Assembly (NCBI GenBank): GCA_030066655.1
Contig: JASJBE010000059.1
Span: 1 to 39,231, forward strand
Length of the DNA: 39,231 bases
Source of the DNA: Woeseiaceae bacterium
GTDB lineage: Bacteria; Pseudomonadota; Gammaproteobacteria; Steroidobacterales; Woeseiaceae
Direction of reading: 5' to 3'
This document shows, piece by piece, positions 18,422 through 34,021 of this stretch; the first letter of the stretch is position 1; each line of letters starts with the position of its first letter. A model generated the notes under the pieces. It had not been told where the DNA came from, searched no databases, and was given only the letters and a program-made list of their open reading frames with translations. Position numbers and translations under genes: made by a program.

Positions 18422-18463
18422 TTCAACGAACGTTGGACGAATCGTAATTCAACGTTTGTTGAA
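18422..18463. promoter_or_regulatory. Tandem TetR-type operators upstream of the TonB receptor
   Basis: Two 16-bp palindromes: TTCAACGAACGTTGGA (18422-18437, one mismatch) and TTCAACGTTTGTTGAA (18448-18463). Start-to-start distance is 26 bp. They lie between the TetR stop and the receptor start, so the receptor can have its own regulated promoter. Confidence 0.85.
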
Positions 18464-18508
18464 TATCAAGGCGGAACGGGGTCTGCCGCGCCTTTAGCGA
18501 GGCGCCGA

Positions 18509-19150
18509 TCAGTGCTTACACAGTTGGCGGAATCCGGCGGCGAGGAACGCGGGCATGCGGTCGATGACCGAGGCGATATCGGTCGACTTGCAGGCGCCGC
18601 CCGACAGGTTATCGATACGCCCGGTTTCAGCAAACGTCAGCGTCAGCGCGCCGGACAGGAAATGGTAGCTCCAGTAGAGATCTTCCGGATCGCTGTCGGG
18701 CAGCGCGCGTTTCAGCGCGTCGATAAAACGCGAGACCAGCGGATCGAAGTAGCGTGACATCAGTTCGCCGCCGCGATCCGGCGAATTGTTGATCTGCGCG
18801 ATGAGCTGGTAGTAATGGCTCCACTGGTCGTGATCCTCGGCGAGTAGCGACAAGAGCGGCCGCGTGAATGCGCCGATGATCTCCTCGACCGTCGGCTCGT
18901 CGTCAGGGTGTCGCTTCTCGACTTCCTCGAGCGCCTTTAACCGGATCTCGTTCAGGTACTCGACGCGCCGCAGCATGACCTGGTCGAACAGGTCTTTCTT
19001 GGACTCGAAGTGGTAGTAGGCGAGGGAAACGTCGGCCTCGGCCTTGGTCATGATCTGGCGGATCGAGACGCCCTCGAAGCCGTGATGCGCGAAGAGCTCT
19101 TCGGCCGCGTCGAGGATCCGTTCGCGGGTCGGGTGCATATCTTTAGCCAT
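18509..19150 (-). CDS. TetR-family transcriptional regulator
   Basis: This 213-residue protein opens with a TetR_N helix-turn-helix: RERILDAAEELFAHHGFEGV, then SIRQIMTKAEADVSLAYYHF at about 29-48 and SKKDLF. The YYHF-KKDLF part is the classic recognition helix and its cap. The C-terminal ligand domain (about 65-213) includes ALPDSDPEDLYWSYHFLSGALTL, typical of TetR proteins that sense acyl-CoA or hydrophobic small molecules, though the ligand is not identifiable. It is divergent from the ketosynthase operon and shares with it an intergenic region holding two palindromic operators, so it very likely regulates itself and that operon. The same palindrome occurs at three more promoters, making this the obvious local repressor for all of them. 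Confidence 0.93.
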   Translation of the reverse strand: MAKDMHPTRERILDAAEELFAHHGFEGVSIRQIMTKAEADVSLAYYHFESKKDLFDQVMLRRVEYLNEIRLKALEEVEKRHPDDEPTVEEIIGAFTRPLLSLLAEDHDQWSHYYQLIAQINNSPDRGGELMSRYFDPLVSRFIDALKRALPDSDPEDLYWSYHFLSGALTLTFAETGRIDNLSGGACKSTDIASVIDRMPAFLAAGFRQLCKH

Positions 19151-19179
19151 GACCTACGCTAACCGACACTCATTTGAAT

Positions 19180-19217
19180 TTCAACAATCGTTGAACTAAC
19201 ATTCAACGCTCGTTGAA
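19180..19217. promoter_or_regulatory. Tandem TetR-type operators in the divergent tetR / ketosynthase promoter
   Basis: TTCAACAATCGTTGAA (19180-19195) and TTCAACGCTCGTTGAA (19202-19217, perfect dyad in its arms), 22 bp start to start. They lie 29 bp upstream of tetR and 36 bp upstream of the ketosynthase start, suited to co-repression of both directions. Confidence 0.9.
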
Positions 19218-19253
19218 ATCCACGAAGGGAATCGTGGCGGGGGACTATCAAGA

Positions 19254-20291
19254 ATGAGAAAAATGGGCATCGTGTCGACCGGCACGTGGTTTCCGGAAAC
19301 CACCATGACCGCCGAAGAGCTCGCGTCAGCGAGCGGTCTTCCCGAGTGGGTCGTGCGTGAAAAACTCGGCATCGAGCGCAAGTACGTCGCGGATCCGAAT
19401 GTGCATCCCAATGACATGGCGGTCAACGCGGCCAGAAAGGCGATAGACAACGCCGGCATTGACCCGATGGATATCGACGTTGTGTTGTGCACGACGGAGG
19501 AATGGCGCGAGTACCTGCTGTGGACCACGGCCGTCGACATCGCTGAGCGCGTTGGCGCGAAGCGCGCCTGGGGTGTGGACGTGCACGCGCGTTGCGTGAC
19601 GACGATTGCCGCGATGAAACTCGCGCACGGCCTGCTATCGGAAGACGAGTCGATCAACACGGTGCTGATCGCCGGCGGCTATGCGATTTCCCATTTCATC
19701 GACTACGCCGATCTCGATACGTCCTTCCTGTTTAACATCGGGGCCGGCGCCGGGGCGATGATCCTGAAGCGCGACCACCCCGAAAACCAGGTGCTGGGCA
19801 ATCACATGATTTGCGACGGGTCGATGAGCCGTCACGTGATCGTGCCGAGCAGCGGTACCGTGCAACATCCGACCGACCAGGCGGTCGCCGACGGCGGTTT
19901 CAAGTTCCGCCTCGTGGAGCCCGAGGCCATGAAAGCCCGGCTCGGCGAGGTGTCCATCCCGAACTGGCTCACTTGTGCCGACGAGGCCTTGAGGAAATCC
20001 GGCTTGAAGAGCGACGGCACGCCCTACACGCGTGACGACATCGATTTCTTGAATATGTCGCTGATCAAACCGTCCGGGCACAACGAGATGCTGAGTCAGC
20101 TGGGGCTTAACGAAGAGCAAAGCGTTTACATCTCGGACACCGGTCACATTGGTGAGCAGGACGGAATTATCAACATCGAGGTCGGCCTCGAGCAGGGCCG
20201 CTTAAAGGCCGGCGACACGATGCTGATGCTGGGTGCCGGCATCGGCTATGTCTGGGGTGGCGCCATCGTTCAGTGGGGACCCGCACAATGA
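19254..20291 (+). CDS. 3-oxoacyl-ACP synthase III-like (thiolase-fold) enzyme
   Basis: This 345-residue protein matches FabH-type length. The nucleophilic Cys is clear: GVDVHARC with Cys114, aligning to Cys112 of E. coli FabH. The other two active-site motifs are not canonical. Instead of HQAN there is KPSGHNEM (His276), and instead of the NTS motif there is SDTGHIGEQDG (293-303), so the usual Asn is not evident. This suggests a divergent KAS III subgroup that condenses, transfers or hydrolyses acyl thioesters rather than a housekeeping FabH. Its stop overlaps the next start by ATGA, so it is translationally coupled to an acyl-CoA ligase. It is first in the operon behind two TetR operators. 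The product is unknown. Confidence 0.88.
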   Translation: MRKMGIVSTGTWFPETTMTAEELASASGLPEWVVREKLGIERKYVADPNVHPNDMAVNAARKAIDNAGIDPMDIDVVLCTTEEWREYLLWTTAVDIAERVGAKRAWGVDVHARCVTTIAAMKLAHGLLSEDESINTVLIAGGYAISHFIDYADLDTSFLFNIGAGAGAMILKRDHPENQVLGNHMICDGSMSRHVIVPSSGTVQHPTDQAVADGGFKFRLVEPEAMKARLGEVSIPNWLTCADEALRKSGLKSDGTPYTRDDIDFLNMSLIKPSGHNEMLSQLGLNEEQSVYISDTGHIGEQDGIINIEVGLEQGRLKAGDTMLMLGAGIGYVWGGAIVQWGPAQ

Positions 20292-21817
20292 AACAGCTTT
20301 CACACTACGTCACTGACTGGCTCGACAAGCGCGCCAGGCTTACGCCGGACAAGGTCGCGCTGATCGACTACGCCACCGGCGCTGAGACCACGTATGCCGC
20401 GTGGAACGAGCGCGTCAACCAGACGGCGAACTACTTGCGGAGCCTCGGCGTCGGCAAAGGCGACCTGGTCGCCGTCTACGCGATGAACCGCGTCGAGTAT
20501 CTCGACCTGTTCTGGGCGGCGCCCAAGATCGGCGCGATCCTGCAAAACCTGAACTGGCGCCTGACCGTGCACGAGCTTAAGGGCATCGTCGACAGTGGCG
20601 AGCCGAAGGTCCTCGTTTACAGCGACGACTGGCGCGAGCAGGTCGAGCAACTTAAACCCTCGTTTACGACGGTGAAGCACGTCGTCGCGATGAACGACCC
20701 GGGTCCGGGCGAACACGATATCGCTGAGCGCGATTCGATGAGTGCGACACTGACCGAGGTGCCGGAGCTTACGCTCGACGATCCCTGGGGCATCTACTAC
20801 ACCGGCGGTACGACCGGGCTGCCGAAGGGCGCCGTCGTCACGCACGGCAACGTGACCTGGAACAGCGTCAACACGATCACGTCGTGGGGCATTACCGGCC
20901 AGCACAAGGCGGCGCTGCAGCTGCCGTTCTTCCACATCGGCGGGCCGATGATCTTCATGATGCCGATGGTCCATGCCGGCGGCACGACGATCCTGTGCAA
21001 CGGATTCGACCTGGACCAGACCTTCGACCTCGTCGAGAACTCGGGCATCACCCACTACGTCGCGGTGCCGACGATGTTCCAGATGCTGCAGGAGCACGAG
21101 CGCTGGGACGCTGCCGATTTCTCGAAGCTGGAGCTGGTGATCAGCGGCGGTGCGCCCTGTCCGCTACCCATCATGGAGAAGTTCTGGGACCGCGGCGTCG
21201 ACTTCAAGATGGGCTACGGCCTGACCGAAGCGTCCGGCAATAACTTCTGGCTGCCGCCGGACAAGGTCCGAGAAAAGATCGGCTCTGTCGGATTCCCGAT
21301 CTTCCACATCGACATGAAGACCATCCGCGAGGACGGCAGTGCTTGCGACGACGGCGAGGAGGGCGAACTGCTGATTCGCGGCCCTCACATCATGGCCGGC
21401 TACTGGAAGAACCCCGACGCGACCGCCGAGACCATTCGCGATGGCTGGCTGCACACGGGCGATGTCGCCGTCCGCGACGCCGACGGCTGCTACTCGATCC
21501 TCGGCCGCTCCAAGGAGATGTTCATCAGCGGCGGCGAGAACGTCTATCCCGCCGAGATCGAATCGGTGCTGACGGCTCATGAGAAGGTACTCGAAGCCGC
21601 CGTGATTGGCGTGCCGCACGAAACCTGGGGCGAGGTGGGTCGCGCGTTCATCGTCGCCGACGACGGATATGACGAAGCTGACCTGAAAGCCTTCCTCGAC
21701 GAGCGCCTGGCGCGCTACAAGTTGCCGCGCTCGATCGTGCTGCTGGACGCGCTGCCGCTGACGGCGATCGGCAAGCTCGACAAGAAGGTGCTTGAGAAGT
21801 ACGAGGTCGACGAATGA
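20288..21817 (+). CDS. Acyl-CoA ligase (AMP-dependent synthetase)
   Basis: The protein is 509 residues from the ATG at 20288, which overlaps the ketosynthase stop as ATGA. The ANL-superfamily motifs are intact: P-loop-like YYTGGTTGLPKGAV (A3), the MGYGLTEASG region (A5), YWKNPDAT / GWLHTGDVA (A7), GRSKEMFISGGENVYPAEIE (A8) and the terminal Lys in AIGKLDKK (A10). It should activate a carboxylic acid to acyl-AMP and then acyl-CoA. The sequence resembles medium/long-chain fatty acyl- and aryl-CoA ligases; the chain type cannot be read by eye. Its coupling to a KAS III-like enzyme and an alpha/beta hydrolase recalls OleC-OleA-OleB sets, but no OleD-like reductase is present. Confidence 0.93.
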   Translation: MKQLSHYVTDWLDKRARLTPDKVALIDYATGAETTYAAWNERVNQTANYLRSLGVGKGDLVAVYAMNRVEYLDLFWAAPKIGAILQNLNWRLTVHELKGIVDSGEPKVLVYSDDWREQVEQLKPSFTTVKHVVAMNDPGPGEHDIAERDSMSATLTEVPELTLDDPWGIYYTGGTTGLPKGAVVTHGNVTWNSVNTITSWGITGQHKAALQLPFFHIGGPMIFMMPMVHAGGTTILCNGFDLDQTFDLVENSGITHYVAVPTMFQMLQEHERWDAADFSKLELVISGGAPCPLPIMEKFWDRGVDFKMGYGLTEASGNNFWLPPDKVREKIGSVGFPIFHIDMKTIREDGSACDDGEEGELLIRGPHIMAGYWKNPDATAETIRDGWLHTGDVAVRDADGCYSILGRSKEMFISGGENVYPAEIESVLTAHEKVLEAAVIGVPHETWGEVGRAFIVADDGYDEADLKAFLDERLARYKLPRSIVLLDALPLTAIGKLDKKVLEKYEVDE

Positions 21818-22881
21818 GCATTCCCGTTCTCGACGGTATCACCGCGCGCACGGTAACGACCGAGCGCCTGACGACTCGCGTGCTGTTCACCGGTCCCGAC
21901 GACGGCATCCCGGTGCTGTTCGTGCACGGTAACTTCTCGAGCGCCACGTGGTGGGAAGAGACGCTGGTGACCTTGCCGCCCGAGTACCGAGGCATTGCGC
22001 CCGACCAGCGCGGCTACGGAGGCGCGGACCCCGAGGCCAAGATCGATGCGACGCGCGGCATGCGCGACTTCGTCGACGATGCGCTGGCATTGATGGACCA
22101 TCTCGGCCACGAACGTTTTCACCTCGTGGGCAACTCGCTGGGCGGACTTGTGGTCTGGTGGGTCATGGCCGACGCCCCCGAGCGCCTGTTGTCGGCGACC
22201 CTCGCCGGGCCCGGCGCACCGTTCGGCTTCGGCGGGACGAGGGATGCCGACGGCACGCCGACGACGCCTGATTTCGCCGGCTCCGGCGGCGGCCTGATCA
22301 ACCCGGACCTGATCAAGAGCCTGCTGGCGGGCGACAAGGACTCGATCGGGGATTTCAGCCCGCGCGGCATCATGCGCCGGCTGGTCTGGAGCGGCGGCCA
22401 GATACCCGAGCGCGAAGACGCGCTGATCGACGCGATGTTCGAAGTGCACATCGGTGACCGCGAGTTGCCGGGCGACTTCGAAAAGTCGGAGAACTGGCCC
22501 TACGTCGCGCCGGGCAAGTGGGGGGCGACCAACGCGATGTCGCCCAAGTACATCGGCAATCTCGTCGAACGCATACTCGCCGGCGAGCCGAAGGTCCACA
22601 CGTTGTGGATCTACGGCGCCGACGACCTCGCCGTATGCAACACGGCCGCGTCGGATCCCGGCACCTGGGGCCCGACGGGTCGCCTGCCGGGCTTTCCGGG
22701 CTCCGAGGCCTATCCGCCGCAGCCGATGATGGACCAGATCCGCAAGATGCTGGACGACTATACGGCCGCCGGCGGCTCCTACGAGGAGGTCGTGATTCCC
22801 GACAGCGGCCACGTGCCATTCATCACGCACATCGAAGCATTCGATCAGGTGTTTCATGCCCACCTCGACAAGACGAGCTAA
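21814..22881 (+). CDS. Alpha/beta hydrolase, third gene of the coupled operon
   Basis: This 355-residue protein begins at an ATGA overlap with the ligase stop. The alpha/beta hydrolase hallmarks are the oxyanion loop VHGNFSS (about 37-43), DQRGYGGAD (64-72), nucleophile elbow GNSLGG with Ser108, the acid region IYGADDLAV (about 267) and the His in DSGHVPF (about 331). There is no signal peptide, so it acts in the cytoplasm, presumably on an ester, thioester or lactone related to the products of the two upstream enzymes. A lid-like insertion of about 80 residues (FGGTRDADG onward) shapes the substrate pocket. An F3 palindrome follows six bases after the stop. The specific reaction is unknown. 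Confidence 0.88.
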   Translation: MSIPVLDGITARTVTTERLTTRVLFTGPDDGIPVLFVHGNFSSATWWEETLVTLPPEYRGIAPDQRGYGGADPEAKIDATRGMRDFVDDALALMDHLGHERFHLVGNSLGGLVVWWVMADAPERLLSATLAGPGAPFGFGGTRDADGTPTTPDFAGSGGGLINPDLIKSLLAGDKDSIGDFSPRGIMRRLVWSGGQIPEREDALIDAMFEVHIGDRELPGDFEKSENWPYVAPGKWGATNAMSPKYIGNLVERILAGEPKVHTLWIYGADDLAVCNTAASDPGTWGPTGRLPGFPGSEAYPPQPMMDQIRKMLDDYTAAGGSYEEVVIPDSGHVPFITHIEAFDQVFHAHLDKTS

Positions 22882-22886
22882 CGAGG

Positions 22887-22960
22887 AAATGGGGACATTC
22901 TGCTTTTCTCGTTTTCCCTGTCCCTGTGAAGAAGGCAGGAAAAGCAGAATGTCCCCATTT
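22887..22960. repeat. F3 palindromic repeat, copy 1
   Basis: Perfect 21-bp arms: 22887-22907 (AAATGGGGACATTCTG plus CTTTT) and 22940-22960, with a 32-base spacer. The right arm ends two bases before the GTG and five before the ATG of the next gene, where a ribosome site would be expected. Confidence 0.95.
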
Positions 22961-22965
22961 ATGTG

Positions 22966-24066
22966 ATGGATAGCGTGAAGTCTGATCAACACGTCTTCGA
23001 GTTAGGCGCATACACCTGCGTGTCCGGCAAAGAGATAGACGATGTCCGGGTCGGATACGAAACCTATGGCACGCTGAACGCCGACAAGAGCAATGCCATC
23101 CTCGTGTGCCACTACTTCTCCGGCAACGCGCGCGCCGCCGGTCCGGCGGACGACGATCACGAGCTCCCGGGCTGGTGGGATAACCTGATCGGCCCGGGCA
23201 AAGCTCTCGACACGGACCGTTACTTTGTCGTCAGCAGCAACACGCTCGCCAACCTCAACGCGGCTGACGGCCGCTCGGTCATGACGGGCCCGGCCAGCCC
23301 GAATCCTGCGACCGGCAAAGCCTATGGACTGGATTTTCCGCTCGTCACGGTCGAGGACTTCGTGCACGTGCAGAAGCGCCTGCTGGAGCACTTAGGTATC
23401 GAGCGACTCGTTGCCGTCGCCGGCCCGTCCGGCGGTTCGGTGCAGGCCATCCAGTGGTCGGTTCAGTACCCCGACATGGTGCCCTGCGTGATCGCGGTGA
23501 TTTCACCGGGGCTGTACATTCACCCCTTCGCCGCCGGCATGATGGAGTTGTGGTCCCGGCCGATCACGGCGGACCCCAAGTGGAATGACGGAGACTACGA
23601 CGCGGCGAACCCGCCCAAAGAAGGCCTGGCGCAGGCCCTGGCGCTGGTCAATCTGACGTCTTTATCCTACGAGTTTGTCGGTGGCTTCGGTTACGGCCCC
23701 GCCGATGCGGACAAGCCTCCCGCGGAATCTCTGGATAACCTGTTTGTCGCCGACGCGATGCTCGATGATATCGCCCGCGCCAGGGCCGAGAGCCTGGATG
23801 CGAACAGCTTTCTGTACATGGTGCGGGCGTACAAGCTGTACGACGTACGGCAACGCCTGCATGAATCCCGCGCAAGGTATCTGTTCGTACCGTCAGAAAC
23901 CGACATGGTGTTTCCGCCGCATCTGTCGGTCACGGCCGTCGATGACCTGAAGGCGGCAGGACTCGACGCAGAGCTGTTCATGCTCAACGTGACGGGCGGC
24001 CACCTCGACGGGCTGGCGAAGATCGATCAGGCCGAGCAGGCCATCAGGACGTTTCTCGACGACTGA
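22966..24066 (+). CDS. MetX-like (homoserine acetyltransferase family) alpha/beta protein
   Basis: The protein is 366 residues from the ATG at 22966; a GTG directly before it at 22963 is in frame. The N-terminal block VRVGYETYGTLNADKSNAIL and the following CHYFSGNA are characteristic of the MetX family, as is WWDNLIGPGKALDTDRYFVV. The nucleophile elbow is AGPSGGS with Ser155; MetX enzymes usually have GGSMGG. The acid and base are seen in VPSETDMVFP and GGHLDG. It may be an acyltransferase or a simple hydrolase; the changed elbow argues against a normal methionine-pathway role. The gene is bracketed by F3 repeats and has no visible Shine-Dalgarno sequence, because the repeat occupies that position. 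Co-expression with the upstream operon is possible. Confidence 0.85.
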   Translation: MDSVKSDQHVFELGAYTCVSGKEIDDVRVGYETYGTLNADKSNAILVCHYFSGNARAAGPADDDHELPGWWDNLIGPGKALDTDRYFVVSSNTLANLNAADGRSVMTGPASPNPATGKAYGLDFPLVTVEDFVHVQKRLLEHLGIERLVAVAGPSGGSVQAIQWSVQYPDMVPCVIAVISPGLYIHPFAAGMMELWSRPITADPKWNDGDYDAANPPKEGLAQALALVNLTSLSYEFVGGFGYGPADADKPPAESLDNLFVADAMLDDIARARAESLDANSFLYMVRAYKLYDVRQRLHESRARYLFVPSETDMVFPPHLSVTAVDDLKAAGLDAELFMLNVTGGHLDGLAKIDQAEQAIRTFLDD

Positions 24067-24068: not shown

Positions 24069-24167
24069 TGGGGACATTCTGCTTTTGTTGCTTCTTGCTG
24101 GACTGACGCAGCAAGCAACAAAAGCAGAATGTCCCCATTACGCAGAAAAGCAGAATGTCCCCATTTT
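24069..24167. repeat. F3 palindromic repeat, copy 2 plus an extra right arm
   Basis: The left arm 24069-24100 and right arm 24109-24137 share the F3 core (TGGGGACATTCTGCTTTT) and pair further inward through GTTGCTT and CAGCAAG with a 3-base bulge, a stem near 29 bp. A second right arm follows at 24146-24167 and overlaps the stop codon of the convergent symporter gene. Confidence 0.93.
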
Positions 24168-25671
24168 AGAGATCCATCGCCATTTCGACGCGGCGGTCGA
24201 GCTCATCGTCCGTCGTGAACAGCGACGCGGCGATCGTGACCACGACCGCGGTCGCCATGACGAACACGTACCACGGCACGCCGCCGGGCCACGTGAAGTC
24301 CGCATGGTCGAAGCGGTTGAGCAATTCGATGCCAACGCCGCCGACCGTCGCGAGCAGCGCCGCCACCATACCCGTCATGACGCCCTTGCTGGTCGCGCCC
24401 TTCCACAACAGACCGATGATGAAGATCGGAAACGTCGCTGCGGCCAATGTGCCGAAACCGTAGGTCCCGAGTATGGCCACCATGTCGCCGCTCGCCGCCG
24501 CGAATCCGATCGCCGCGATGCCCATGACCGACATCGCGATGCGCGAGACCGTCACCTGCTGGGCCGGATTCATCGTGACGCCGAACGATCCCGGCAAGTC
24601 ACGCGACACGATATTGCCAGCCAGCGACAGGAACAGGCTCGACGTGGACAACGCAGCGGCCAGCACGGCCGGGTAGACGAAGACCTGGGCGAACAGGCCG
24701 AGGTAGTCCGCGACCTTGAACACGGCCTTGTCCGGATGGTCGATCTCGACCAGGCCGTTGGCCGCGAGGTAGATGGCGCAGTAGCCGATGGCCATCACCA
24801 TGGCGCCGGTTATGACGTTGGTGCTGACTGCGTACAACGAAAGCTTCGGCAGTTCCCGCGGGTTGCGAAGCATCATGATGCGCGTCAGGACTTGCGGCTG
24901 GCACATGATGCCGAGCGTGGGCAGCATGACCCAGGCGAACGCAAACGCGCCCGGCAGACTGCCCCACGCGGTCATGGCGGCCGGGTCCAGGTTCGTTGAC
25001 CCGTTCCCGGCCTCCGAGATGGAGGCGAGGACCGGCTCGAAGCCGCCCGTTACGGCGAAGAACGCGATCGCGAATACGAGGCCGGCCAGGACGATCACGA
25101 AGCCCTGGAACGCCTGCGTCAGGATGCCGCCGATCTCTCCGCTCAAGACTGTGTAGGTGATCAGGATAGCGAAGATAACGACGCTGATGATGAGCTTGTT
25201 CCAGTCGAACAGGTTCTCGAACAGCTTGGCGCAGGCCTCAACCTGTGCCGACAGGTACATCGCGCAGCCGATAAACAGCATCAGCGACAGGATCAGTTTG
25301 ATGCCACGGTGACCGTTGAAGCGCAGGTCCGATACGTCGCCCAGGCTCGCGACGGTGCCAATCTCTGCCAGTGCGCGTAGCTTTTTGCCGATGACGAGAT
25401 AGCCGAACACGAAACCGGGTGCTGCGAACATGAACAGCAGGATCGTGTTGCCGGTGCTGTAGACGAGACCCGGCACACCAACGACGGCGAAGGCGCTGCC
25501 AACGGCGGCCATCGTCGCGAGGCCGACGGTCAGAGGGCCGAAGATCTTCGCGCCGCCGAAAAACGCCTCGGGTGAGGTCACTTTCTTCTGCGCCCACACA
25601 CCGATGCCGAAGGAAATGGCGAGGACGGCCACGGACGAGGCGAGGATCAGGTATTTCTCCCAGTCGCTCAT
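24166..25671 (-). CDS. Sodium:solute symporter (SSS family)
   Basis: The protein is 501 residues from the ATG at 25671; the 21 residues further upstream in frame are polar and overlap the previous gene. About 12-13 hydrophobic segments are spread along the chain, beginning with YLILASSVAVLAISFGIGVW. The motifs ATMAAVGSAFAVVGVPGLVY, AALSTSSLFLSLAGNIVSRD and the central YLSAQVEACAKLFENLF are typical of SSS/ActP-PutP-like transporters that couple uptake of organic acids or amino acids to sodium. Its start overlaps the stop of a small membrane protein (ATGA), recalling the ActP-DUF485 pairing. In this context a carboxylate substrate feeding the ligases is a reasonable guess, but no residue proves it. 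Confidence 0.92.
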   Translation of the reverse strand: MSDWEKYLILASSVAVLAISFGIGVWAQKKVTSPEAFFGGAKIFGPLTVGLATMAAVGSAFAVVGVPGLVYSTGNTILLFMFAAPGFVFGYLVIGKKLRALAEIGTVASLGDVSDLRFNGHRGIKLILSLMLFIGCAMYLSAQVEACAKLFENLFDWNKLIISVVIFAILITYTVLSGEIGGILTQAFQGFVIVLAGLVFAIAFFAVTGGFEPVLASISEAGNGSTNLDPAAMTAWGSLPGAFAFAWVMLPTLGIMCQPQVLTRIMMLRNPRELPKLSLYAVSTNVITGAMVMAIGYCAIYLAANGLVEIDHPDKAVFKVADYLGLFAQVFVYPAVLAAALSTSSLFLSLAGNIVSRDLPGSFGVTMNPAQQVTVSRIAMSVMGIAAIGFAAASGDMVAILGTYGFGTLAAATFPIFIIGLLWKGATSKGVMTGMVAALLATVGGVGIELLNRFDHADFTWPGGVPWYVFVMATAVVVTIAASLFTTDDELDRRVEMAMDL

Positions 25672-26137: not shown

Positions 26138-26424
26138 TAGGGGCTGTAGGCACTGTGGGGATGCACTCTGCCGGAGTCCATTTTTTCGCCCGGCAAGGCG
26201 GAGGGAGCGCCGTTTAGCACCGCTAAACAAGCGACTGACAACGCCGCTGGCGGAAAAATGGATCCGGCCCTTCGGGTTGTCCCTGAAAAAGCGTCACTGG
26301 GCGTTGCTCGTACCCAAGGGGCAGACCCTCGTTCATTTGGAATCACCAAACCTCACTCCTCGCGCCTACATTGACGCTTTTTCAGGGACGACAGGGTACA
26401 TCCCCACAGTGCCTACAGTCCCTA
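26138..26424. repeat. Nested palindromic element of about 287 bp
   Basis: Outer arms TAGGGGCTGTAGGCACTGTG... (26138-26163) and 26399-26424 are 26-bp complements with one mismatch. Inside, GTCCCTGAAAAAGCGTCA (26279-26296) pairs perfectly with 26372-26389. CCGGAGTCCATTTTTTCGCC (26171-26190) pairs imperfectly with 26249-26267, and within that GTTTAGC ACC GCTAAAC (26212-26228) makes a perfect hairpin. It occupies most of the 412-base gap between divergent genes. No ORF with coding character is seen. It could be a MITE-like element or a structured RNA. Confidence 0.8.
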
Positions 26425-26503: not shown

Positions 26504-26519
26504 TTCAACGCTCGTTGGA
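26504..26519. promoter_or_regulatory. TetR-type operator upstream of the PhaC-like operon
   Basis: A single palindrome TTCAACGCTCGTTGGA, 22 bp before the first ATG and overlapping a possible -10 (AATAAT at 26519-26524). It differs from the 19202 site by one base. Confidence 0.85.
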
Positions 26520-26541: not shown

Positions 26542-27570
26542 ATGAAATATGTGTTGACGTTGCTACCCACCAACGCGACCTTCCGGTCCGCCGCTGAAAC
26601 CATCGAAATCGGTGATGATGTGCGCGTTCATCACCTGGTTCCGCGCTTCAATGAGACGCACCCGATCCCGATCATCCTGGTCCACTCGCTGCTGTCGAAG
26701 TGGTACGTGTTCGACCTGCATCCGAATCGAAGCCTCGCGGCGTACCTCCGCGACAACGGCTACGACGTCTGGTGCGTCGATTGGGGCGTTCCCGACAATA
26801 CCCGGCCGACACCGAGCTTCAGTGCCTACGTGCAGAACTGGCTCGATTCTGTCGTCGACGTCGTCACGGCTGAGAGCGGCGCCGATCGCGTGACGATGTT
26901 CGGCTATTCGCTCGGCGGCGTGCTGTCGACAATGTACGCATCGCTATACCCTGATCGGCTACAGAATCTCGTCACACTGACCACACCCGTCGACTTTTCC
27001 GAAACGGGCCTCAACCAGCTGTACGCTCGGGCGTTCCCCGCCGAGACGATGGTCGACTTCTGGGGCAATATCCCGGTGTGGTGGCTGAAGAGCGCGACTC
27101 TATGGGGAACGATGGCTCGCGCCCGTGGCTTGTGGAAGTCGTTTGGCAGCGAATTGTCGAGCCCGGCAGGCCGGAGCGTCGTGGCCGAAGTCATGCGCTG
27201 GACCTTCGACAATGTGCCGCTGGCAGGGGAGATGTTCCGCCGGCTGATGCGTGACTGCTATCGGGAGAACCTGCTGATCGAGGACCGCTTTACCATCGGC
27301 GGCGAGATCGTTCGCCTGTCCAGTATTTCCGCCTCGCTACTCACGATCTCTGCATCGGACGACGATCTTTGTCCGCGTGTGGCGGCCGAGGCACTCAATC
27401 ACGCCGTCTCGAGCGAAGATGAGACGGCAATCATGGTCCCGGGCAGTCACCTCGGTGCCGTCATCGGCCAGGAAGCGCACCACCTGTTGTGGACGCGTGT
27501 TGTGGACTGGCTGTCCCGGCGGTCGGGTCACCACCCGGCTGCTTACTACGGAGTCAACGATGCTATTTGA
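26542..27570 (+). CDS. PhaC-like alpha/beta protein with Ser nucleophile
   Basis: This 342-residue protein has the PHA-synthase-type layout: IPIILVHSLLSKWYVFDLHP, then SLAAYLRDNGYDVWCVDWG (the 'GxDVyllDWG' block of PhaC) and the nucleophile elbow FGYSLGG with Ser123. True PHA synthases have Cys in a GxCxG box; here it is Ser, so a hydrolase or acyltransferase activity is more likely than polymerisation. The candidate acid is in SASDDDLCP and the base in VPGSHLG, the PhaC positions. It is the first gene behind a single TetR operator, and its 3' end overlaps the next gene by 11 bp. It is shorter than class I synthases and close to class III PhaC length. Confidence 0.85.
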   Translation: MKYVLTLLPTNATFRSAAETIEIGDDVRVHHLVPRFNETHPIPIILVHSLLSKWYVFDLHPNRSLAAYLRDNGYDVWCVDWGVPDNTRPTPSFSAYVQNWLDSVVDVVTAESGADRVTMFGYSLGGVLSTMYASLYPDRLQNLVTLTTPVDFSETGLNQLYARAFPAETMVDFWGNIPVWWLKSATLWGTMARARGLWKSFGSELSSPAGRSVVAEVMRWTFDNVPLAGEMFRRLMRDCYRENLLIEDRFTIGGEIVRLSSISASLLTISASDDDLCPRVAAEALNHAVSSEDETAIMVPGSHLGAVIGQEAHHLLWTRVVDWLSRRSGHHPAAYYGVNDAI

Positions 27571-27898
27571 TAACACCAGTCCCGGCGCCGCGATCCGGGG
27601 CATCGCCGACCGGCTTCTCGTCACCGCGGGTGAGAGGATCGATGAGATCGTCGCCTCGGAGGAGTTTTCCGAGGCCGTTGCCCGCGGCATGTCGGTGGCC
27701 GCTACGACGGCCGGGTCAGTGCGGGGCATGACGCACGTCGTTGGCGACATCGCGTCGGAGTGGTTCAACGTCCCGACGCGGGCGCAGGTACACGAGCTGT
27801 CGCGCCGCCTGACGCATCTCGAGATGTTGCTCGACGACGTCGACGTTAAGACCAGCGAACTGGTTGAGCGTCTCGGTGAACAGGATGCCGAGGATTGA
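27560..27898 (+). CDS. PhaE/phasin-like small subunit
   Basis: The protein is 112 residues from the ATG at 27560, which has a GGAG ribosome site inside the end of the upstream gene (11-bp overlap). The chain is all helical in character. Its second half reads VPTRAQVHELSRRLTHLEML, close to the 'lPTRxExdxLhrRlheLEr' segment found at the C-terminus of class III synthase subunit PhaE and in PHA-associated phasins. The final part has heptad-like spacing suited to a coiled coil. It is sandwiched between two PhaC-like genes with overlaps on both sides, so a subunit or granule-associated role with them is likely. The similarity is short, so the call is an inference. Confidence 0.7.
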   Translation: MLFDNTSPGAAIRGIADRLLVTAGERIDEIVASEEFSEAVARGMSVAATTAGSVRGMTHVVGDIASEWFNVPTRAQVHELSRRLTHLEMLLDDVDVKTSELVERLGEQDAED

Positions 27899-29282
27899 CT
27901 CGACCATAAGGGGCCTGCTCAAAGCGGTCACCCGGCCCGCGCGAACCGCGCGGGCGATCACGTCGTCGTTCACGTACCCGGTGGGGCAGACCCCGCGCGA
28001 AAAAGTATGGCGGCTGAACAAGTGCGTCCTCTATCGCTACAAGCCGGTTCGCCCGGCCGCTGAACGGCACCCGGTGCCGCTGTTGCTCGTGTTTGCCGCC
28101 ATCAACCGCCCGTTCCTGTTCGACATGCGGCCCGGTTTCAGCTTTATCGAGTTCATGCTCGAGCAGGGCTTCGACGTTTACCTCTTCGACTGGGGCGAGT
28201 TCGGTCCCGAAGACGGGGATATGACGCTTGACGACTATGGCGCCGAGTACGTGCCGCGGGCGGTGCGGCGAGTCTTGCGTGATTCGGGCGCCAAAGAGGT
28301 GAGCGTGCTCGGCTACTGCATGGGCGCCATCATCGTGCTCCTGTACGCGGCCCTGAACATAGATGGGCCGATGAGAAACATGATCCTGCTCACGACGCCG
28401 CTCGACATGTCCGAGCGAGAGGGCAGCAAGTTCGTCACGTGGTTGGACAAGCGCTGGTTCGACGTCGACAAGGTGACCGGCGGCCTCGACGGTGTGCTCC
28501 CGACCATGGCCATCGAGAACGGCGGCAAGATGCTGAAAGTGGCTGCCAATTATGTAGGCGCTTACGTCAATCTGTGGGACCGCATCGATAACCCGGAGTC
28601 GGTCGCGAACTGGCAGGCCATGCACCGCTGGGTGCATGACGGCGTCCCGCTGCCGGCCGGCGCGTTCAGGCAGTGGGTCCGCGATTACCTGTGGGACAAC
28701 GCGCTCGTGTCCGGCAAGCACACCGTGAAGGGCCAGAGGGTCGACCTCGGAAAGATCACGGTGCCAACGCTCAACATCCTCGCGAAGTACGACCATATCG
28801 TGCCGGTAGCCCAGTCGATGGCGGTCGGCGAGCTCCTCGGCAGCAAGGACATCACGACCGAGGTGCTCAATGCGGGGCACATCGGCATCATGGCGGGCAG
28901 AAAATCCAAGGGTGAGCTGTGGCCGAAACTTGCCGCCTGGCTGGGCGAGCGCTCCGGCCTCGACGCCAGGAACGCCCATTCAGGAGCTCGCGCAGAGCCG
29001 GTGAAGCGGGCGGCCCGCAAGAAGACGGCTGACAAGACGGCGTCAAGTAAGAAATCAATCGCACGGGAAAAGGCGACTGATCAGAAGGTGCCACCCAAGA
29101 AAACGACCGCACCGAATAAGGCGACTGACCAGAAGGTGCCACCCAAGAAAACGACCGCACGGAAAGAGGCGACTGATCAGAAGGCGCCACGCAAGAAATC
29201 AGCCGTGAAAAAGAAGGTCGCCAGGAAGACGACGGCGACGAAGAAAAAAGCGTCCAGGAAGAAGGCGTCCAGGAAGAAGTGA
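27885..29282 (+). CDS. PhaC-like polyester synthase with lysine-rich tail
   Basis: The protein is 465 residues from the ATG at 27885; a TTG at 27864 is in frame, and the start overlaps the small subunit gene by 14 bp. The PhaC core has PLLLVFAAINRPFLFDMRPG, then FMLEQGFDVYLFDWGEFG and the synthase box LGYCMG with Cys145. The likely Asp is Asp303 (AKYDHIVP) and the His is His332 (NAGHIG), the Cys-Asp-His triad of PHA synthases. After about residue 375 comes a tail of some 90 residues rich in Lys, Ala and Thr, with three 16-residue repeats beginning ATDQKVPPKKTTA (DNA period 48 bp, units from 29073, 29121 and 29169). The tail resembles histone H1/PhaF-like DNA-binding tails. It may tether the enzyme or granules to the nucleoid. 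Confidence 0.87.
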   Translation: MPRIDSTIRGLLKAVTRPARTARAITSSFTYPVGQTPREKVWRLNKCVLYRYKPVRPAAERHPVPLLLVFAAINRPFLFDMRPGFSFIEFMLEQGFDVYLFDWGEFGPEDGDMTLDDYGAEYVPRAVRRVLRDSGAKEVSVLGYCMGAIIVLLYAALNIDGPMRNMILLTTPLDMSEREGSKFVTWLDKRWFDVDKVTGGLDGVLPTMAIENGGKMLKVAANYVGAYVNLWDRIDNPESVANWQAMHRWVHDGVPLPAGAFRQWVRDYLWDNALVSGKHTVKGQRVDLGKITVPTLNILAKYDHIVPVAQSMAVGELLGSKDITTEVLNAGHIGIMAGRKSKGELWPKLAAWLGERSGLDARNAHSGARAEPVKRAARKKTADKTASSKKSIAREKATDQKVPPKKTTAPNKATDQKVPPKKTTARKEATDQKAPRKKSAVKKKVARKTTATKKKASRKKASRKK

Positions 29283-29321: not shown

Positions 29322-30428
29322 TCACTCTTTAGTGCGTCGCTCCCGCAGTTCGGCGAGGATCGCGTCGGTGTCTGCGCCGATTTCCGGTGGGCTCGACGGC
29401 GTGCTGCATTCGGACCGGCTGAAACGCGGTGCGGGCGCCGGCTGGGTGACGCCTCCGACCTTGATATACGTTTCGCGGGCCTGGTTGTGTGGATGGTCCG
29501 GCGCCTCGCGGTAGTCGAGCACCGGTGCGAAGCAGACGTCCGTTCCCTCGAGAATTTCACACCATTCGTCGCGAGTCTTAGCAACAAAGACGGCGGCCAA
29601 TCGGGCTTTCATATCGGGCCAGCGCGATGGGTTGTCCCTGTCCTTGAACACGGCCGGATCGAGGCCGGCCTTCTCGATCAACAGCGCGTAGAACTGTGGC
29701 TCGTAGGAGCCGATCGAAATGAACTTCGCGTCGGCCGTTTTATACACGTTGTAGTAGGGCACTGCGCCATCGAGCAGGTTGGACTCCCGCTCGGGCGTCC
29801 ACACACCGAGTTTGTCCATAGTGCGAAACATGCTCATGAGGCTGGCCGTACCGTCGGTGATGGCGGCATCGATTACCTGGCCCTTGCCCGAGGAACGCAC
29901 CTCGAGCAACGCCGCAAGAATGCCCACGACGAGGAACAGGCTGCCGCCGCCGAAATCGCCAACGAGGTTCAGCGGAATAGTGGGTTTGTCACGGTCGCCG
30001 ATGGCCGCCAGCGCACCCGTCAATGCGATATAGTTGATGTCATGACCGGCGCTGTGGGCGAGCGGTCCTGCCTGGCCCCAGCCCGTCATGCGACCGTAGA
30101 TCAGCCGCGGATTGCGCGACAGGCAGACATCCGGCCCGAAGCCGAGTCGCTCGGCGACGCCCGGCCGGTTGCCTTCGAAGAGCACGTCTGCCGACTCGAC
30201 GAGCGCCAACAGGTTATCCAGTCCCTCCGACGTCTTGACGTCGAAGACGACCGACTTTTTATTGCGAGAGTGAATGTCGAGGTGCGACGGTGGTGCCACG
30301 CCCGTGGCTTCGGTGGAGCGCTCTACGACGATGACCTCGGCGCCGAGGTCTGCGAGCAGCATGCCCGCGTACGGACCGGGGCCGATGCCCTTCATCTCGA
30401 TGACGCGGATTCCGGCAAGTGGTCCCAT
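29322..30428 (-). CDS. Alpha-methylacyl-CoA racemase (CaiB/BaiF family III)
   Basis: The protein is 368 residues from the ATG at 30428, which overlaps the upstream stop as TGATG; a TTG one codon earlier is less likely. Family III CoA-transferase features are strong: GPLAGIRVIEMKGIGPGPYA at the start and RNKKSVVFDVKT. The racemase-specific blocks are AGHDINYIALTG (His129) and NLVGDFGGGSLFLV (Asp158), which match His126 and Asp156 of Mycobacterium tuberculosis MCR. The enzyme should interconvert (2R)- and (2S)-2-methylacyl-CoA, needed when branched chains such as isoprenoid or sterol side-chain acids enter beta-oxidation. It is last in a four-gene minus-strand operon led by an acyl-CoA ligase, giving a coherent activation-then-racemisation order. 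Confidence 0.93.
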   Translation of the reverse strand: MGPLAGIRVIEMKGIGPGPYAGMLLADLGAEVIVVERSTEATGVAPPSHLDIHSRNKKSVVFDVKTSEGLDNLLALVESADVLFEGNRPGVAERLGFGPDVCLSRNPRLIYGRMTGWGQAGPLAHSAGHDINYIALTGALAAIGDRDKPTIPLNLVGDFGGGSLFLVVGILAALLEVRSSGKGQVIDAAITDGTASLMSMFRTMDKLGVWTPERESNLLDGAVPYYNVYKTADAKFISIGSYEPQFYALLIEKAGLDPAVFKDRDNPSRWPDMKARLAAVFVAKTRDEWCEILEGTDVCFAPVLDYREAPDHPHNQARETYIKVGGVTQPAPAPRFSRSECSTPSSPPEIGADTDAILAELRERRTKE

Positions 30429-31339
30429 CAATGGTCTCCGAGTTCCGCGAGGAATGTGTCGATTGCGCCAAGCATCTCCGGTCCCTCGATGTACGGTGAA
30501 TGGCCGATGTCCGGAATGGTCGCGACTTTAAGGTCCGGCTTGACTGCCTGCATGCGTTCGACGATCTCCTCCGACAGGATGTCGGACAGTTCGCCACGCA
30601 TCACGAGGCAGGGCATGTCGACCGCGCGGAATGAATCCCATGCATCGATTGGCACACCGCGCACCTCCTTCATGACGCGCAGGGCGCGCAGCATTTTCAG
30701 GGCGGGCAGCGCTCGCATCGAATGTCGGATCGCGTCGCCTATTTTCATGTCCATGTCCAGCTCGGGACGGCCGTCGTCGCCTTCGCGATAGGCCAGTCGC
30801 ACACGCTCCTCCCAATACTCGCGTGGCCGTTTGGGTATGCCCACGCCATAGGTGCTGTGCAGTTGATCCACCGCCGCGTCCCAGTCTCTCACCGGGGTCT
30901 GTCGACCCACATAGTTCAGGATGCGTTGGATGCCGGTCGGGTCGGCTTCCGGTCCGATGTCGTTCAGGATAATCGCCTTGACGCGCTTCGGTTGCTGATA
31001 GGCCAGGGTCATGGACATCAGGCCACCCATCGACGTGCCGAGGAAAATCGCCTCGGGCACGTCGGCCACGTCCATCAGGCGGTCGAGGTCCGGCATGTAC
31101 GTGGGGATGTTGTAGTTGTGCCAGTTGGGATCCCGATCGGACATGCCACGCCCCCTGGGGTCGGCGCAGATCACGCGGTAGCGATCGGCGAGTCGCAGTG
31201 CGAGCTCATGGAAATCCCGGGAGTTGCGGGTGAGGCCGGGGAGGCAGAGGATGGTGTCGCCGCTGTCATCGCTGCCGTACACCCGATAGTAAAGGCTTAG
31301 CCCGTCATCAGATGAAAAGCGATGTTCGCTGAACGACAT
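30428..31339 (-). CDS. Alpha/beta hydrolase of the racemase operon
   Basis: This 303-residue protein has the standard small-molecule alpha/beta hydrolase pattern: CLPGLTRNSRDF (about 32-43, oxyanion loop), ADPRGRGMSD (59-68), nucleophile elbow GTSMGG with Ser103 and the base in DIGHSPYIEGPE (about His281). The acid is probably in MRGELSDILSEE. There is no signal peptide. The tight one-base overlap with the racemase gene and 26-bp spacing from the depolymerase-like gene place it in the same transcript. A role in ester or thioester cleavage of an intermediate is likely; the substrate cannot be named. Confidence 0.9.
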   Translation of the reverse strand: MSFSEHRFSSDDGLSLYYRVYGSDDSGDTILCLPGLTRNSRDFHELALRLADRYRVICADPRGRGMSDRDPNWHNYNIPTYMPDLDRLMDVADVPEAIFLGTSMGGLMSMTLAYQQPKRVKAIILNDIGPEADPTGIQRILNYVGRQTPVRDWDAAVDQLHSTYGVGIPKRPREYWEERVRLAYREGDDGRPELDMDMKIGDAIRHSMRALPALKMLRALRVMKEVRGVPIDAWDSFRAVDMPCLVMRGELSDILSEEIVERMQAVKPDLKVATIPDIGHSPYIEGPEMLGAIDTFLAELGDH

Positions 31340-31365
31340 GGCGGGTCAGTGGAGATCGACGTGTA

Positions 31366-32400
31366 TCACAACGAGCGCCCCGCCAGCGCGTCCATCGTCG
31401 CCTTGATCACCTTGATCTGCGGACCGGATTTGGTCGCGTAGCTCTCTTCCGTGTAGCCCCACCAGTCCCAGCAGCCCATCGGGTTGAGCGGCGCAAGCTT
31501 GCTGCTCGCCACCTGCGGATACAGGACGATCATCCGGTTGGCTTCGGCCCACTCGTTGTAGCCGGCGCCGGCCGCAAATGCATCGCCAATGTACGCGGTT
31601 GACTGCAGGCAGCCGTGCAGCGCGACGTGCAGGCCGCAAGCATCGCCCGCCGCGCAGGCCTTGGGTACATAGAGCAGCGCGTTCTCTAACATGGTCGCAT
31701 CGTCCGCGCCGGGCTGTGCGAACTCCTGCAACGTTCCGGACGCGTCGACGCGCGCCTCGAGTTTGCCGTGAAGCGCTGCCAGCAGATTGCCCGCCGCGTC
31801 GTAGTTGCAGGCGTTCAGGTACGGTTCCGCCATTTCGTTGCAGGCGGCGCCGGTCTCAAGCGTCGGGAAACCGTGCGTGGCTTCGACGTCGCCGACGTAC
31901 TGGATTGAATCTTCCGGCATGAACTCGTTGTAGAAGGCAACGGTCGCCTGTGAGGCCCGCGCTGACATAGCTGCGTCCAGTGTCGCGTGGAAGACCCATG
32001 CGCGGTCGCCTTCGAGACTGGCCAGCGCATCGATGCTGCCGTCGGCTTCGGCCTGCTTCGCGGACGCTACCAGCTTATCAACGCCGATTTCGCCGCCTTT
32101 CATGCAAGGCCCGAGAGCGGTTTGCATGGACGCTTGCGCGCAAAACCAGGGTCCGCCCGCCAGCAGCGCGGCACCGTTGAACAACGATGAGTGCGCGACA
32201 TGCAGCTGCGTCGCCATCATCGCACCCGACGAGACGCCGGAGACGCTGATACGCGTCGAGTCGATGTTGTAGGTCACGGTCTCTTCTGTCTGGGTCGGTT
32301 CGTCGCTGCCGCCGCAGGCAGTGATCAGGATCGCGACGAGCGGCAGCAGTCCGCGCATGCCCATCGACGCTCCATCGGCCACGTTGTCGGCTCGAGTCAT
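31366..32400 (-). CDS. PHB-depolymerase-like esterase, lipoprotein
   Basis: The protein is 344 residues from the ATG at 32400 (AAGGA seven bases upstream); the ATG at 32364, with GGAG five bases upstream, would give a more usual signal peptide. The lipobox is ITAC (Cys29), so it is lipid-anchored outside the cytoplasm. The triad fits the Penicillium-type PHB depolymerase family: GVSSG with Ser57, Asp142 (HATLDAA) and His176 (VEATHGFP), at spacings close to Ser39-Asp121-His155. The oxyanion HGC motif is in ALHGCLQS. Many Cys residues suggest disulfides. It could release hydroxyacids from polyesters or other esters at the cell surface. It sits between the ligase and the hydrolase in one operon. 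Confidence 0.87.
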   Translation of the reverse strand: MTRADNVADGASMGMRGLLPLVAILITACGGSDEPTQTEETVTYNIDSTRISVSGVSSGAMMATQLHVAHSSLFNGAALLAGGPWFCAQASMQTALGPCMKGGEIGVDKLVASAKQAEADGSIDALASLEGDRAWVFHATLDAAMSARASQATVAFYNEFMPEDSIQYVGDVEATHGFPTLETGAACNEMAEPYLNACNYDAAGNLLAALHGKLEARVDASGTLQEFAQPGADDATMLENALLYVPKACAAGDACGLHVALHGCLQSTAYIGDAFAAGAGYNEWAEANRMIVLYPQVASSKLAPLNPMGCWDWWGYTEESYATKSGPQIKVIKATMDALAGRSL

Positions 32401-32414
32401 GTTCTTGTCCTTAT

Positions 32415-33968
32415 CTATGCGTGGCGAAGAGCGTCGGCGTAGTGCCTGCGAAGCTCTCGCTTGAGTATCTTGCCATTCGGATTACGAGGCAACTCGTCGA
32501 TCAGCACGGTGTCTGCGACTCTCTGTTGCTTACCCACTCTCGCGTTCACCCATCCGGTCAGGCGGTCGGGCGTCTCGGTCGCGCCTTCGGCGGGTACGAC
32601 GACTGCCAGCGGCGTCTCACCCCATTTCTCGTGCGGGATGCCTATGACGGCGACCTCGCTGACGGCGTCGTGCTCGATCATCGCGGCCTCGATATCCGCC
32701 GGGTAGATGTTCTGGCCACCCGAGATAATCAGGTCTTTCTTGCGATCAACGAGGTACAGGAAGCCGTCTTCGTCGAGCTTGCCGATATCCCCGGTACGCA
32801 ACCATCGTTCGCCGGACGGGTGCGTCCACGTCGCTTCTTCGTTGGCCGCGTCATTGGCGTGGTAGCCGGCCATCGTGAAGCCGCACAGGCCGACGATCTC
32901 ACCGACCTGGCCTGCGGGCAGCACATGATCGTTGTCGTCGAGTATCGCGATGCGCTGGCCGGGGCAGGGTTGGCCGACGGACTCGAGTTTTTCAGGCATG
33001 TCCTCGGGCGACAGGATCGTGACCAGGCCCTCGGTGAGTCCGTACAGTTCGATGAAGTCGCCCGGCCAGCGTTCGGCGAGCGTCTTCTTCAGCGCGGGCG
33101 CCAATGGTGATCCGCAGCACATGCAGGCATCGAGACTCGACAGGTCGTACTTCGCAAAATCCGAGTGCTCGAGAATTTTCTGGAATTGCAGTGGCACCAT
33201 GGCCGTGTGAGTGACCCGGTGCTTCTCGATTGTCTCGAGACAGTCCTCCACGGTGAAGCGTCGCGAGATAACGATCGCGCCCTGCGCGAAGAAGGTCGCG
33301 AGTATGCCCACCCACGTGATGTTCGAGAACAAGCCGAGATTGCACAGGTTGCGTGCGCCTGAGTGATAGCGAAGAGACACGGCGAGATCGCTGCCCCAGG
33401 CTGCACGACCTGCGTGATCGTGCACGATGCCCTTGGGCAAGCCCGTCGTACCGGAGCTGTAGATAATGTTGCACTCGTCGTCGGCAGAGATCTCGACGGT
33501 CGGCGTCGCGTCACTGGCCGCGTCGCGCATCGTCGCGTAGTCGGTCCAGCCATCGAAGGGGGAGTCCGGTGCGATCAGCATCGCGTCGATCCGATCGCGA
33601 AGTGCTTCGACCCGGTGCACATGTTCGCCCGATGCGACGATCGCTTTGGCGTTCGAGTTGACCGCCATGCCGGCAACGGCGTCATCGGTAATGGAGACGT
33701 TGAGCGGCACGGCAACGCAGCCGGCCCGGATGACACCGAACATGGCCTCGGCCATCTCGTAGCTGTTCTTCATCAGTATGACGACCCGGTCGCCCTTGCC
33801 GAGCCCGGCATCGGAAAGCGCGTTCGCGAAGCGCGCCGTACCCGCGCCGAAGTCACTCCAGCTGATGATCTGGTCGTCGATGATGACGGCCGGCTTGTCA
33901 CGCAGGTATTCCTGGTTCCACGTCAGGATGTCGGGAATCAGGACAGGTCGGGGTGAGAACCACGACAT
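32415..33968 (-). CDS. Acyl-CoA ligase, first gene of the racemase operon
   Basis: The protein is 517 residues from the ATG at 33968; a GTG two codons upstream is also in frame. ANL motifs are intact: YSSGTTGLPKGIVHDHAG (A3), ELYGLTEGLV (A5), RWLRTGDIGKLDEDGF (A7), RKKDLIISGGQNIYPADIE (A8) and the A10 Lys in PRNPNGKILKREL. It should form acyl-CoA from a carboxylic acid. It is only distantly similar to the ligase at 20288, so the two probably take different acids. The gene begins 16 bp downstream of two TetR operators and heads the depolymerase, hydrolase and racemase operon, with 14 bp to the next gene. Confidence 0.93.
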   Translation of the reverse strand: MSWFSPRPVLIPDILTWNQEYLRDKPAVIIDDQIISWSDFGAGTARFANALSDAGLGKGDRVVILMKNSYEMAEAMFGVIRAGCVAVPLNVSITDDAVAGMAVNSNAKAIVASGEHVHRVEALRDRIDAMLIAPDSPFDGWTDYATMRDAASDATPTVEISADDECNIIYSSGTTGLPKGIVHDHAGRAAWGSDLAVSLRYHSGARNLCNLGLFSNITWVGILATFFAQGAIVISRRFTVEDCLETIEKHRVTHTAMVPLQFQKILEHSDFAKYDLSSLDACMCCGSPLAPALKKTLAERWPGDFIELYGLTEGLVTILSPEDMPEKLESVGQPCPGQRIAILDDNDHVLPAGQVGEIVGLCGFTMAGYHANDAANEEATWTHPSGERWLRTGDIGKLDEDGFLYLVDRKKDLIISGGQNIYPADIEAAMIEHDAVSEVAVIGIPHEKWGETPLAVVVPAEGATETPDRLTGWVNARVGKQQRVADTVLIDELPRNPNGKILKRELRRHYADALRHA

Positions 33969-33983
33969 GAGCACATCTCGAAT

Positions 33984-34021
33984 TTCAGCGTTCGCTGAAT
34001 ACTAGTTCAACGACCGTTGAA
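33984..34021. promoter_or_regulatory. Tandem TetR-type operators upstream of the ligase-racemase operon
   Basis: TTCAGCGTTCGCTGAA (33984-33999) and TTCAACGACCGTTGAA (34006-34021), 22 bp start to start. The first has symmetrical compensating changes in both arms (AAC to AGC, GTT to GCT), which keeps the dyad perfect. Confidence 0.9.

Follow-up and report, generated by a model that had tools for sequence, protein, structure and literature searches.

Contig JASJBE010000059.1, from the draft genome of a Woeseiaceae bacterium (GenBank assembly GCA_030066655.1), carries seven copies of the 16-bp palindrome TTCAACN4GTTGAA around a gene for a TetR-family protein. The whole 39,231-nucleotide stretch was analysed and is hereafter called the window. 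Judged from its sequence, it is highly probable that this one TetR-family repressor controls a cluster of import and activation genes through palindromes located in their promoters. The existence of a single repressor is supported by four kinds of evidence: the co-occurrence of site and TetR gene, the promoter geometry, a test on displaced symporter genes, and the covariation of recognition helix and operator. The regulator is related to PsrA yet distinct from it, and most likely works by promoter occlusion.

Operator sites in the window and the draft genome

An initial annotation of the window had listed the seven palindromes, and a pattern search finds all of them where it placed them, at 18422, 18448, 19180, 19202, 26504, 33984 and 34006. 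The copies at 19202 and 34006 are exact, those at 18422, 18448, 19180 and 26504 have one mismatch each, and the site at 33984, TTCAGCGTTCGCTGAA, has two mirrored changes, which are the symmetric compensating changes described in that annotation. Its pair spacings of 22 or 26 bp are also reproduced: we measured 26 bp (TonB receptor), 22 bp (ketosynthase/tetR) and 22 bp (ligase operon). All seven sites are indeed intergenic; the one at 18422 is 2 bp from the longest open reading frame (ORF) of the TonB receptor, for which an inner ATG at 18377 is a better start.

We shuffled the window 100 times at the dinucleotide level: allowing up to three mismatches, the pattern was found 1.99 times on average (standard deviation 1.44, maximum 6), and no shuffle reached seven. 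The draft genome (3,613,093 bases in 167 contigs, 91% complete) was scanned using the pattern with mismatches rather than a weight matrix. With up to one mismatch, six places are found, all within the 39-kb window. With up to two mismatches, there are 14 places, seven in the window and seven outside, and every one of the latter has two mismatches; since the reversed pattern gives eight matches in the whole genome, these outside matches look like background. The hundreds of matches inside genes that the initial annotation had named as counting against its proposal do not occur. Chance and gene-internal scatter as sources of the palindromes are ruled out by the shuffles, the genome scan and the 80-locus count described below. 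As for an RNA element, the window contains no Rfam match at gathering score.

Promoter geometry

To describe the position of the sites, we lined up 45 promoters, 24 with a 22-bp pair and 21 with a 26-bp pair. They come from the window, from 21 of the 80 loci described below that were selected for their Woeseia-type arrangement, and from the second promoter with a 22-bp pair in the window and in a relative, G242. The TonB side of L108 is off its contig, and L106 and L107 (other pair spacing) and L159 (TetR gene cut) were excluded. In each pair, O1 denotes the site inside the promoter and O2 the other one. A TTG at the -35 position directly abuts O1 in 44 of the 45 promoters, and TA....T follows one base past O1 in all 45, so that O1 is itself the 17-bp spacer. 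Averaged over the promoters, agreement with TTGACA and TATAAT is highest at these offsets. Both boxes (TTGnnn and TAnnnT) surround O1 in 44/45 promoters and O2 in 0/45, and 200 shuffles of the flanks gave 0 or 1 of 45 promoters with both boxes. Three promoters of the window have this geometry (TonB, ketosynthase and ligase), and a separate promoter scanner run on 18300-19300 reported a single promoter, TTGATA-17-TACGAT around 18448 (TonB). Changes that mirror each other in the two half-sites are over-represented: among 102 distinct sites and site-like words, 30 mirrored half-site changes were observed versus 15.8 (standard deviation 2.9) with the right halves shuffled, a number reached in none of 2000 shuffles, and position 7 holds 20 of the 30.

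The site at 26504, before the operon of two PhaC-like genes, has no -35/-10 geometry around it. Because this site is single and lacks promoter geometry, the PhaC unit is the least secure of the four that the initial annotation placed under one repressor; its proposal is upheld for the TonB, tetR/ketosynthase and ligase promoters and is less certain here. It is somewhat unlikely, though a serious alternative, that the repressor runs only those three promoters and that the 26504 site is due to chance or is vestigial. The geometry is also missing at the G242 counterpart, the site is unpaired, and matches with two mismatches occur seven times elsewhere in the genome. However, the site has one mismatch, and nothing as good is found outside the window in 3.6 Mb. 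Moreover, G242 keeps a palindrome with mirrored changes, TTGAACGATCGTTCAA, 22 bp before the corresponding ATG, although the flanks have diverged from those of the window.

From the promoter geometry, direct repression is predicted. Some TetR-type proteins both activate and repress, LuxR of Vibrio harveyi being a reported example, and the protein studied here might likewise bind the sites as an activator, alone or in addition to repressing. We consider this improbable, since both sites are positioned to block the polymerase, O1 within a spacer of the standard 17 bp and O2 where transcription starts.

Co-occurrence of the site and the TetR gene

The comparison of sites in related genomes that the initial annotation had suggested came out in its favour. 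The TetR gene (E 1e-20) is present in 20 of the 73 genomes of the genus, and exact sites are found in 17 of these 20 versus none of the 53 genomes lacking the gene; G006 of the genus, a pattern match, has 0 exact sites. At the level of the order, the gene (E 1e-30) is present in 50 of 296 genomes and an exact site in 22, of which 20 are among the 50. Among the sites away from a TetR gene, those of G019 and G269 are located within an ORF, and that of G071 is not immediately upstream of a gene.

We then collected loci carrying TetR relatives, scanning one genome per species, and used the best 80 of 126 loci. Zones beside tetR were defined as 450 bp before and 300 bp after the gene, which amounts to 59,264 positions. 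With up to one mismatch, the palindrome occurs 126 times in these zones (47 of the 80 loci) and not once in the 1,264,817 other positions, whereas three rearranged control patterns are absent from the zones and occur 0 to 3 times elsewhere. These counts come from draft genomes and from search patterns derived from these very sites. The fact that the palindrome accompanies the repressor through many species argues for a real control circuit.

The predicted conserved regulon and displaced symporters

Relatives within the Woeseiaceae carry, in this order, the TonB receptor gene, the 26-bp pair, tetR, the 22-bp pair, and the ligase, hydrolase and depolymerase-like genes. By this comparison, the conserved regulon is predicted to be the TonB receptor, tetR, and an operon of acyl-coenzyme A (acyl-CoA) ligase, hydrolase, polyhydroxybutyrate (PHB)-depolymerase-like protein and SSF symporter. 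Thus, of the regulon given in the initial annotation, the TonB receptor, tetR and the ligase operon stand as the core, while the ketosynthase unit turns out to be lineage-specific.

The symporter provides a separate test. In G105, an exact distal site lies upstream of an SSF symporter, and this symporter, used as a query, gave 18 matches among 28 genomes (the G157 copy is at a contig edge, and G236 and G300 are outside the counts). In ten genomes, the symporter is located at most 15 bp behind the depolymerase-like gene, and none of the ten has a site of its own. In the five genomes with the symporter on a separate contig (G105, G001, G017, G043 and G054), an exact TTCAACN4GTTGAA always precedes the start of the match by 68-121 bp. 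The sites of G105, G001 and G017 were known beforehand, and those of G043 and G054 were newly found by the test. In this sense, the operator travels with the function.

Recognition helix and operator forms

Among the 80 loci, the 16-bp site is present with every one of the 47 repressors whose residue 47 is His (..YHF or ..YHC) and with none of the 33 that have Tyr there. Loci with the helix D(P/A)AL(V/I)(A/T)YYF contain TTCAACGTTGAA in 15 of 15 cases (L117-L119, L123, L125, L126, L128-L131, L134-L136, L139 and L140), and it is found 0 times elsewhere in 1.26 Mb. This 12-bp palindrome before tetR replaces the 16-bp form in Alphaproteobacterial, mostly Maricaulaceae, relatives. The helix DTAL(L/I)HYYF goes with TTCATCANNTGATGAA (up to two mismatches) in 10 of 10 loci. 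The latter form is less specific, since 11 of the 47 His loci and 1 of the 23 other Tyr loci also contain it and it occurs 9 times elsewhere in 1.26 Mb. Palindromes resembling TTCATCANNTGATGAA precede tetR in the Steroidobacteraceae loci L153, L155, L160 and L162-L166, several of which have them paired about 56 bp apart.

In a tree of 79 repressors (L159 excluded), the 16-bp label needs three changes, the 12-bp group is one clade (100/99), and the Tyr-bearing L116 joins the His-bearing L120-L122 (99/95). Kinship explains most of the covariation and other residues change as well, so we regard it as a lead.

A different regulator reading the sites, with the TetR gene merely as a neighbour, is slightly less probable still than an activator. 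Two of the 22 exact-site genomes of the order lack this TetR, which would favour this alternative, but the two sites are within an ORF (G019) or not directly upstream of a gene (G071). In addition, none of the 53 TetR-lacking genomes of the genus has an exact site, and the operator type shifts together with the recognition helix of the TetR protein itself.

Several observations weigh against the proposed control by one repressor. G151, G222 and G240 have the TetR gene and only sites with mismatches, with no exact 16-bp copy, and no 16-bp site is found in 33 of the 80 loci, whose TetR genes are more distant. L106 and L107, metagenome-assembled genomes (MAGs) of Alcanivoracaceae, keep the Woeseia-type gene order and not the pair spacing: L106 has one site, and L107 has one before tetR and two after it, 34 bp apart. 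At the ligase promoter of G242, O2 has three mismatches. Finally, the zone limits were chosen post hoc, and the compared species are related and hence not independent.

The added ketosynthase/PhaC-like cassette

The KASIII gene is present in 2 of the 27 genomes tested, the window's genome and G242, and the ketosynthase unit is thus read as a lineage-specific addition. In both genomes, the cassette sits between tetR and the ligase operon, and the front of the cassette and the ligase operon each have a 22-bp pair of like build. No CoA-transferase match was found at the end of the ligase operon in G242. Concerning the origin of the cassette, a class-wide search for KASIII covered 369 genomes and matched three, namely that of the window and two distant ones (51% and 50%). 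In these two, no further cassette gene was found beside KASIII on the contigs examined, one of which is only 3.2 kb long. Plasmid records matching the ketosynthase number 227, all below 60% identity.

In G242, the divergent symporter unit begins with an ORF located about 90 bp from the PhaC-side site, and the PhaC site may additionally serve the symporter. In the window, the two are separated by an element resembling a miniature inverted-repeat transposable element (26138-26424). This element contains no gene, has 36-nt terminal inverted repeats that are 89% complementary, and is absent from the corresponding place in G242; more copies or parts of it, with 77-92% identity, are found on six other contigs of the genome.

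Relation to known regulators

The TetR protein scores 52 bits against PF00440 (cut-off 24), which places it among the TetR-family helix-turn-helix proteins, and 126.7 bits against PF17939 (TetR_C_30), also above the cut-off. Its nearest named relative is from a Woeseiaceae MAG (L089, 92%). The best NCBIfam match is the PsrA model NF053516, and one of its nearest solved structures is 2fbq, which we take to be PsrA of P. aeruginosa.

PsrA of Pseudomonas and relatives is fatty-acid responsive and shares with this protein the TetR_C_30 domain, a TTCAA...TTGAA palindrome, acyl-CoA-related targets and, probably, the character of an autoregulated TetR-type repressor (PMC13104628). However, its operator is the 18-bp TTCAAACN4GTTTGAA (PMC13104628), one base longer per half than the 16-bp form found here. 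Its targets are fad genes and rpoS, in contrast to a local regulon with a TonB receptor and a depolymerase-like gene. That the protein is a true PsrA, which would sense long-chain fatty acids and control beta-oxidation, is the least probable alternative of all and was rejected: the NF053516 score is 109.2 bits versus a cut-off of 300, a genome scan with this model at E 1e-15 gave no other match, and the 18-bp pattern has one match with three mismatches in the window, where the chance mean is 0.94.

Two other systems can be compared. TetR of tetracycline resistance has two 15-bp operators 11 bp apart in a divergent promoter, with a dimer per operator and repression through promoter block (PMC9736018); these features resemble those proposed here, whereas the operator sequence and targets differ and 6 or 10 bp separate the 16-bp sites here. 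PA3973 of P. aeruginosa, a TetR-like protein with acyl-CoA dehydrogenase and thioesterase targets, has a palindrome pair around the -10 of its own promoter (PMC9736018), but its motif is SAAGRNMTGAACG and it has more than 300 genomic sites, while good sites here are limited to one locus.

Polysaccharide-utilisation-type loci bring together a local regulator, a depolymerising enzyme, a TonB receptor, an inner-membrane importer and activating enzymes. The cluster in the window has such a set of parts in one locus, although its enzyme families would indicate esters and acyl-CoA rather than sugars.

The initial annotation had not recognised the operator as that of a named regulator. In agreement with this, it differs from that of PsrA, and the operator strings gave no match in the literature searched, outside which most subscription papers fall, so that an earlier description is possible. 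The control circuit is of a familiar kind and apparently undescribed.

Proposed mechanism and function

Sites, conservation, geometry and co-occurrence are read directly from the sequences; binding, repression, ligand, substrate and the control of the PhaC-like unit are inferred. In the proposed mechanism, the dimeric TetR repressor would bind TTCAACGNNCGTTGAA. At three promoters, those of the TonB receptor, ketosynthase/tetR and the ligase operon, one dimer would lie on O1, exactly the -35/-10 spacer, and a second on O2, which starts at or right after the -10; because the dimers occupy these places, RNA polymerase would be shut out. The tetR gene is probably autoregulated via the shared 22-bp pair. 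Release may be caused by a substrate-derived acid or acyl-CoA, and derepression would then allow import across the outer membrane by the TonB receptor, ester cleavage by the PHB-depolymerase-like protein, uptake across the inner membrane by the SSF symporter and CoA activation by the ligases. The added cassette, now placed between tetR and its former neighbour operon, would respond through its own operators.

Gene families, assigned using Pfam and NCBIfam, suggest that the cluster serves ester cleavage, import and CoA activation, the substrates being perhaps hydroxyalkanoate polyesters or oligomers. The PHB-depolymerase-like protein scores 350.4 bits against NF050059 (type 2 short-chain-length polyhydroxyalkanoate (PHA) depolymerase, cut-off 280), and its nearest solved structure is PHB depolymerase 2d80 (E 1.1e-48). 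The PhaC-like proteins reach 211.8 (first) and 300.1 bits (second) against TIGR01836 (class III PHA synthase subunit PhaC), below its cut-off of 365.3.

A wider reading, which we put forward tentatively and do not expect to hold in full, combines a polyester- or oligoester-utilisation locus under one repressor with a series of operator re-spacings linked to a His-to-Tyr change across the repressor family. The depolymerase-like enzyme, apparently a lipoprotein, would cut the polymer, the TonB receptor would take in oligomers, the hydrolases and SSF symporter would handle monomers, and the CoA ligases would activate them; the window lineage would have added the PhaC-like genes. As to re-spacing, the His-to-Tyr change in the recognition helix would accompany a shift from the 16-bp operator to the 12-bp TTCAACGTTGAA or to TTCATCANNTGATGAA.

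Genes and other features of the window

The features are listed in Table 1. The second PhaC-like protein has a Lys/Ala-rich C-terminal tail (29049-29279) encoded by tandem repeats, with a 48-bp unit present in 3.1 copies (29049-29198). PhaF bears a histone-like tail, which this tail resembles. Near the cluster, a Schlafen/AlbA_2-domain protein (13712-14875) scores 28.8 bits, barely above the Pfam cut-off of 25.3. Short intergenic tandem repeats with a common AAAGGGGTC-like core are located at 6139-6183, 9071-9152 and 34121-34150.

Table 1. Genes and predicted operator sites around tetR, in order of position in the window
Feature	Position	Strand	Remarks
TonB-dependent receptor	16092-18419	-	PF00593 158.1 bits, PF07715 76.9 bits
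O2, TonB-receptor promoter	18422-18437	-	26 bp from O1
O1, TonB-receptor promoter	18448-18463	-	-35 TTGATA (18469-18464), -10 TACGAT (18446-18441); fills 17-bp spacer
tetR, proposed repressor, PsrA-related	18509-19150	-	213 amino acids; PF00440, PF17939
O1, ketosynthase promoter, divergent from tetR	19180-19195	+	-35 TTGAAT (19174-19179), -10 TAACAT (19197-19202)
O2, ketosynthase/tetR promoter region	19202-19217	+	22 bp from O1
Added unit: KASIII-like (PRK06840), acyl-CoA ligase, alpha/beta hydrolase, MetX-like esterase	19254-24066	+	
SSF sodium:solute symporter	24166-25734	-	PF00474 97.3 bits
Small ORF before SSF symporter	25668-26153		no family over cut-off
Single site, 22 bp upstream of ATG of first PhaC-like gene	26504-26519	+	without -35/-10 geometry
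First PhaC-like protein	26542-27570	+	Ser in GxSxG box (by eye)
Second PhaC-like protein	27864-29282	+	Cys in GxCxG box, Lys-rich repeated tail (by eye)
Ligase operon	29322-33974	-	gaps of at most 26 bp, one overlap
Family III CoA-transferase, ligase operon	29322-30431	-	
Alpha/beta hydrolase, ligase operon	30428-31339	-	
PHB-depolymerase-like protein, ligase operon	31366-32400	-	
Acyl-CoA ligase, ligase operon	32415-33974	-	
O2, ligase-operon promoter	33984-33999	-	two mirrored changes
O1, ligase-operon promoter	34006-34021	-	-35 TTGAAT (34027-34022), -10 TAGTAT (34004-33999)

Implications

The Woeseiaceae, here nearly all MAGs, gain a predicted regulon at base resolution. How a TetR recognition helix and its operator spacing change together could be studied across the repressor family, which forms a natural series. 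If the substrate is a polyester, the cluster would point to TonB-dependent import of polyester fragments.

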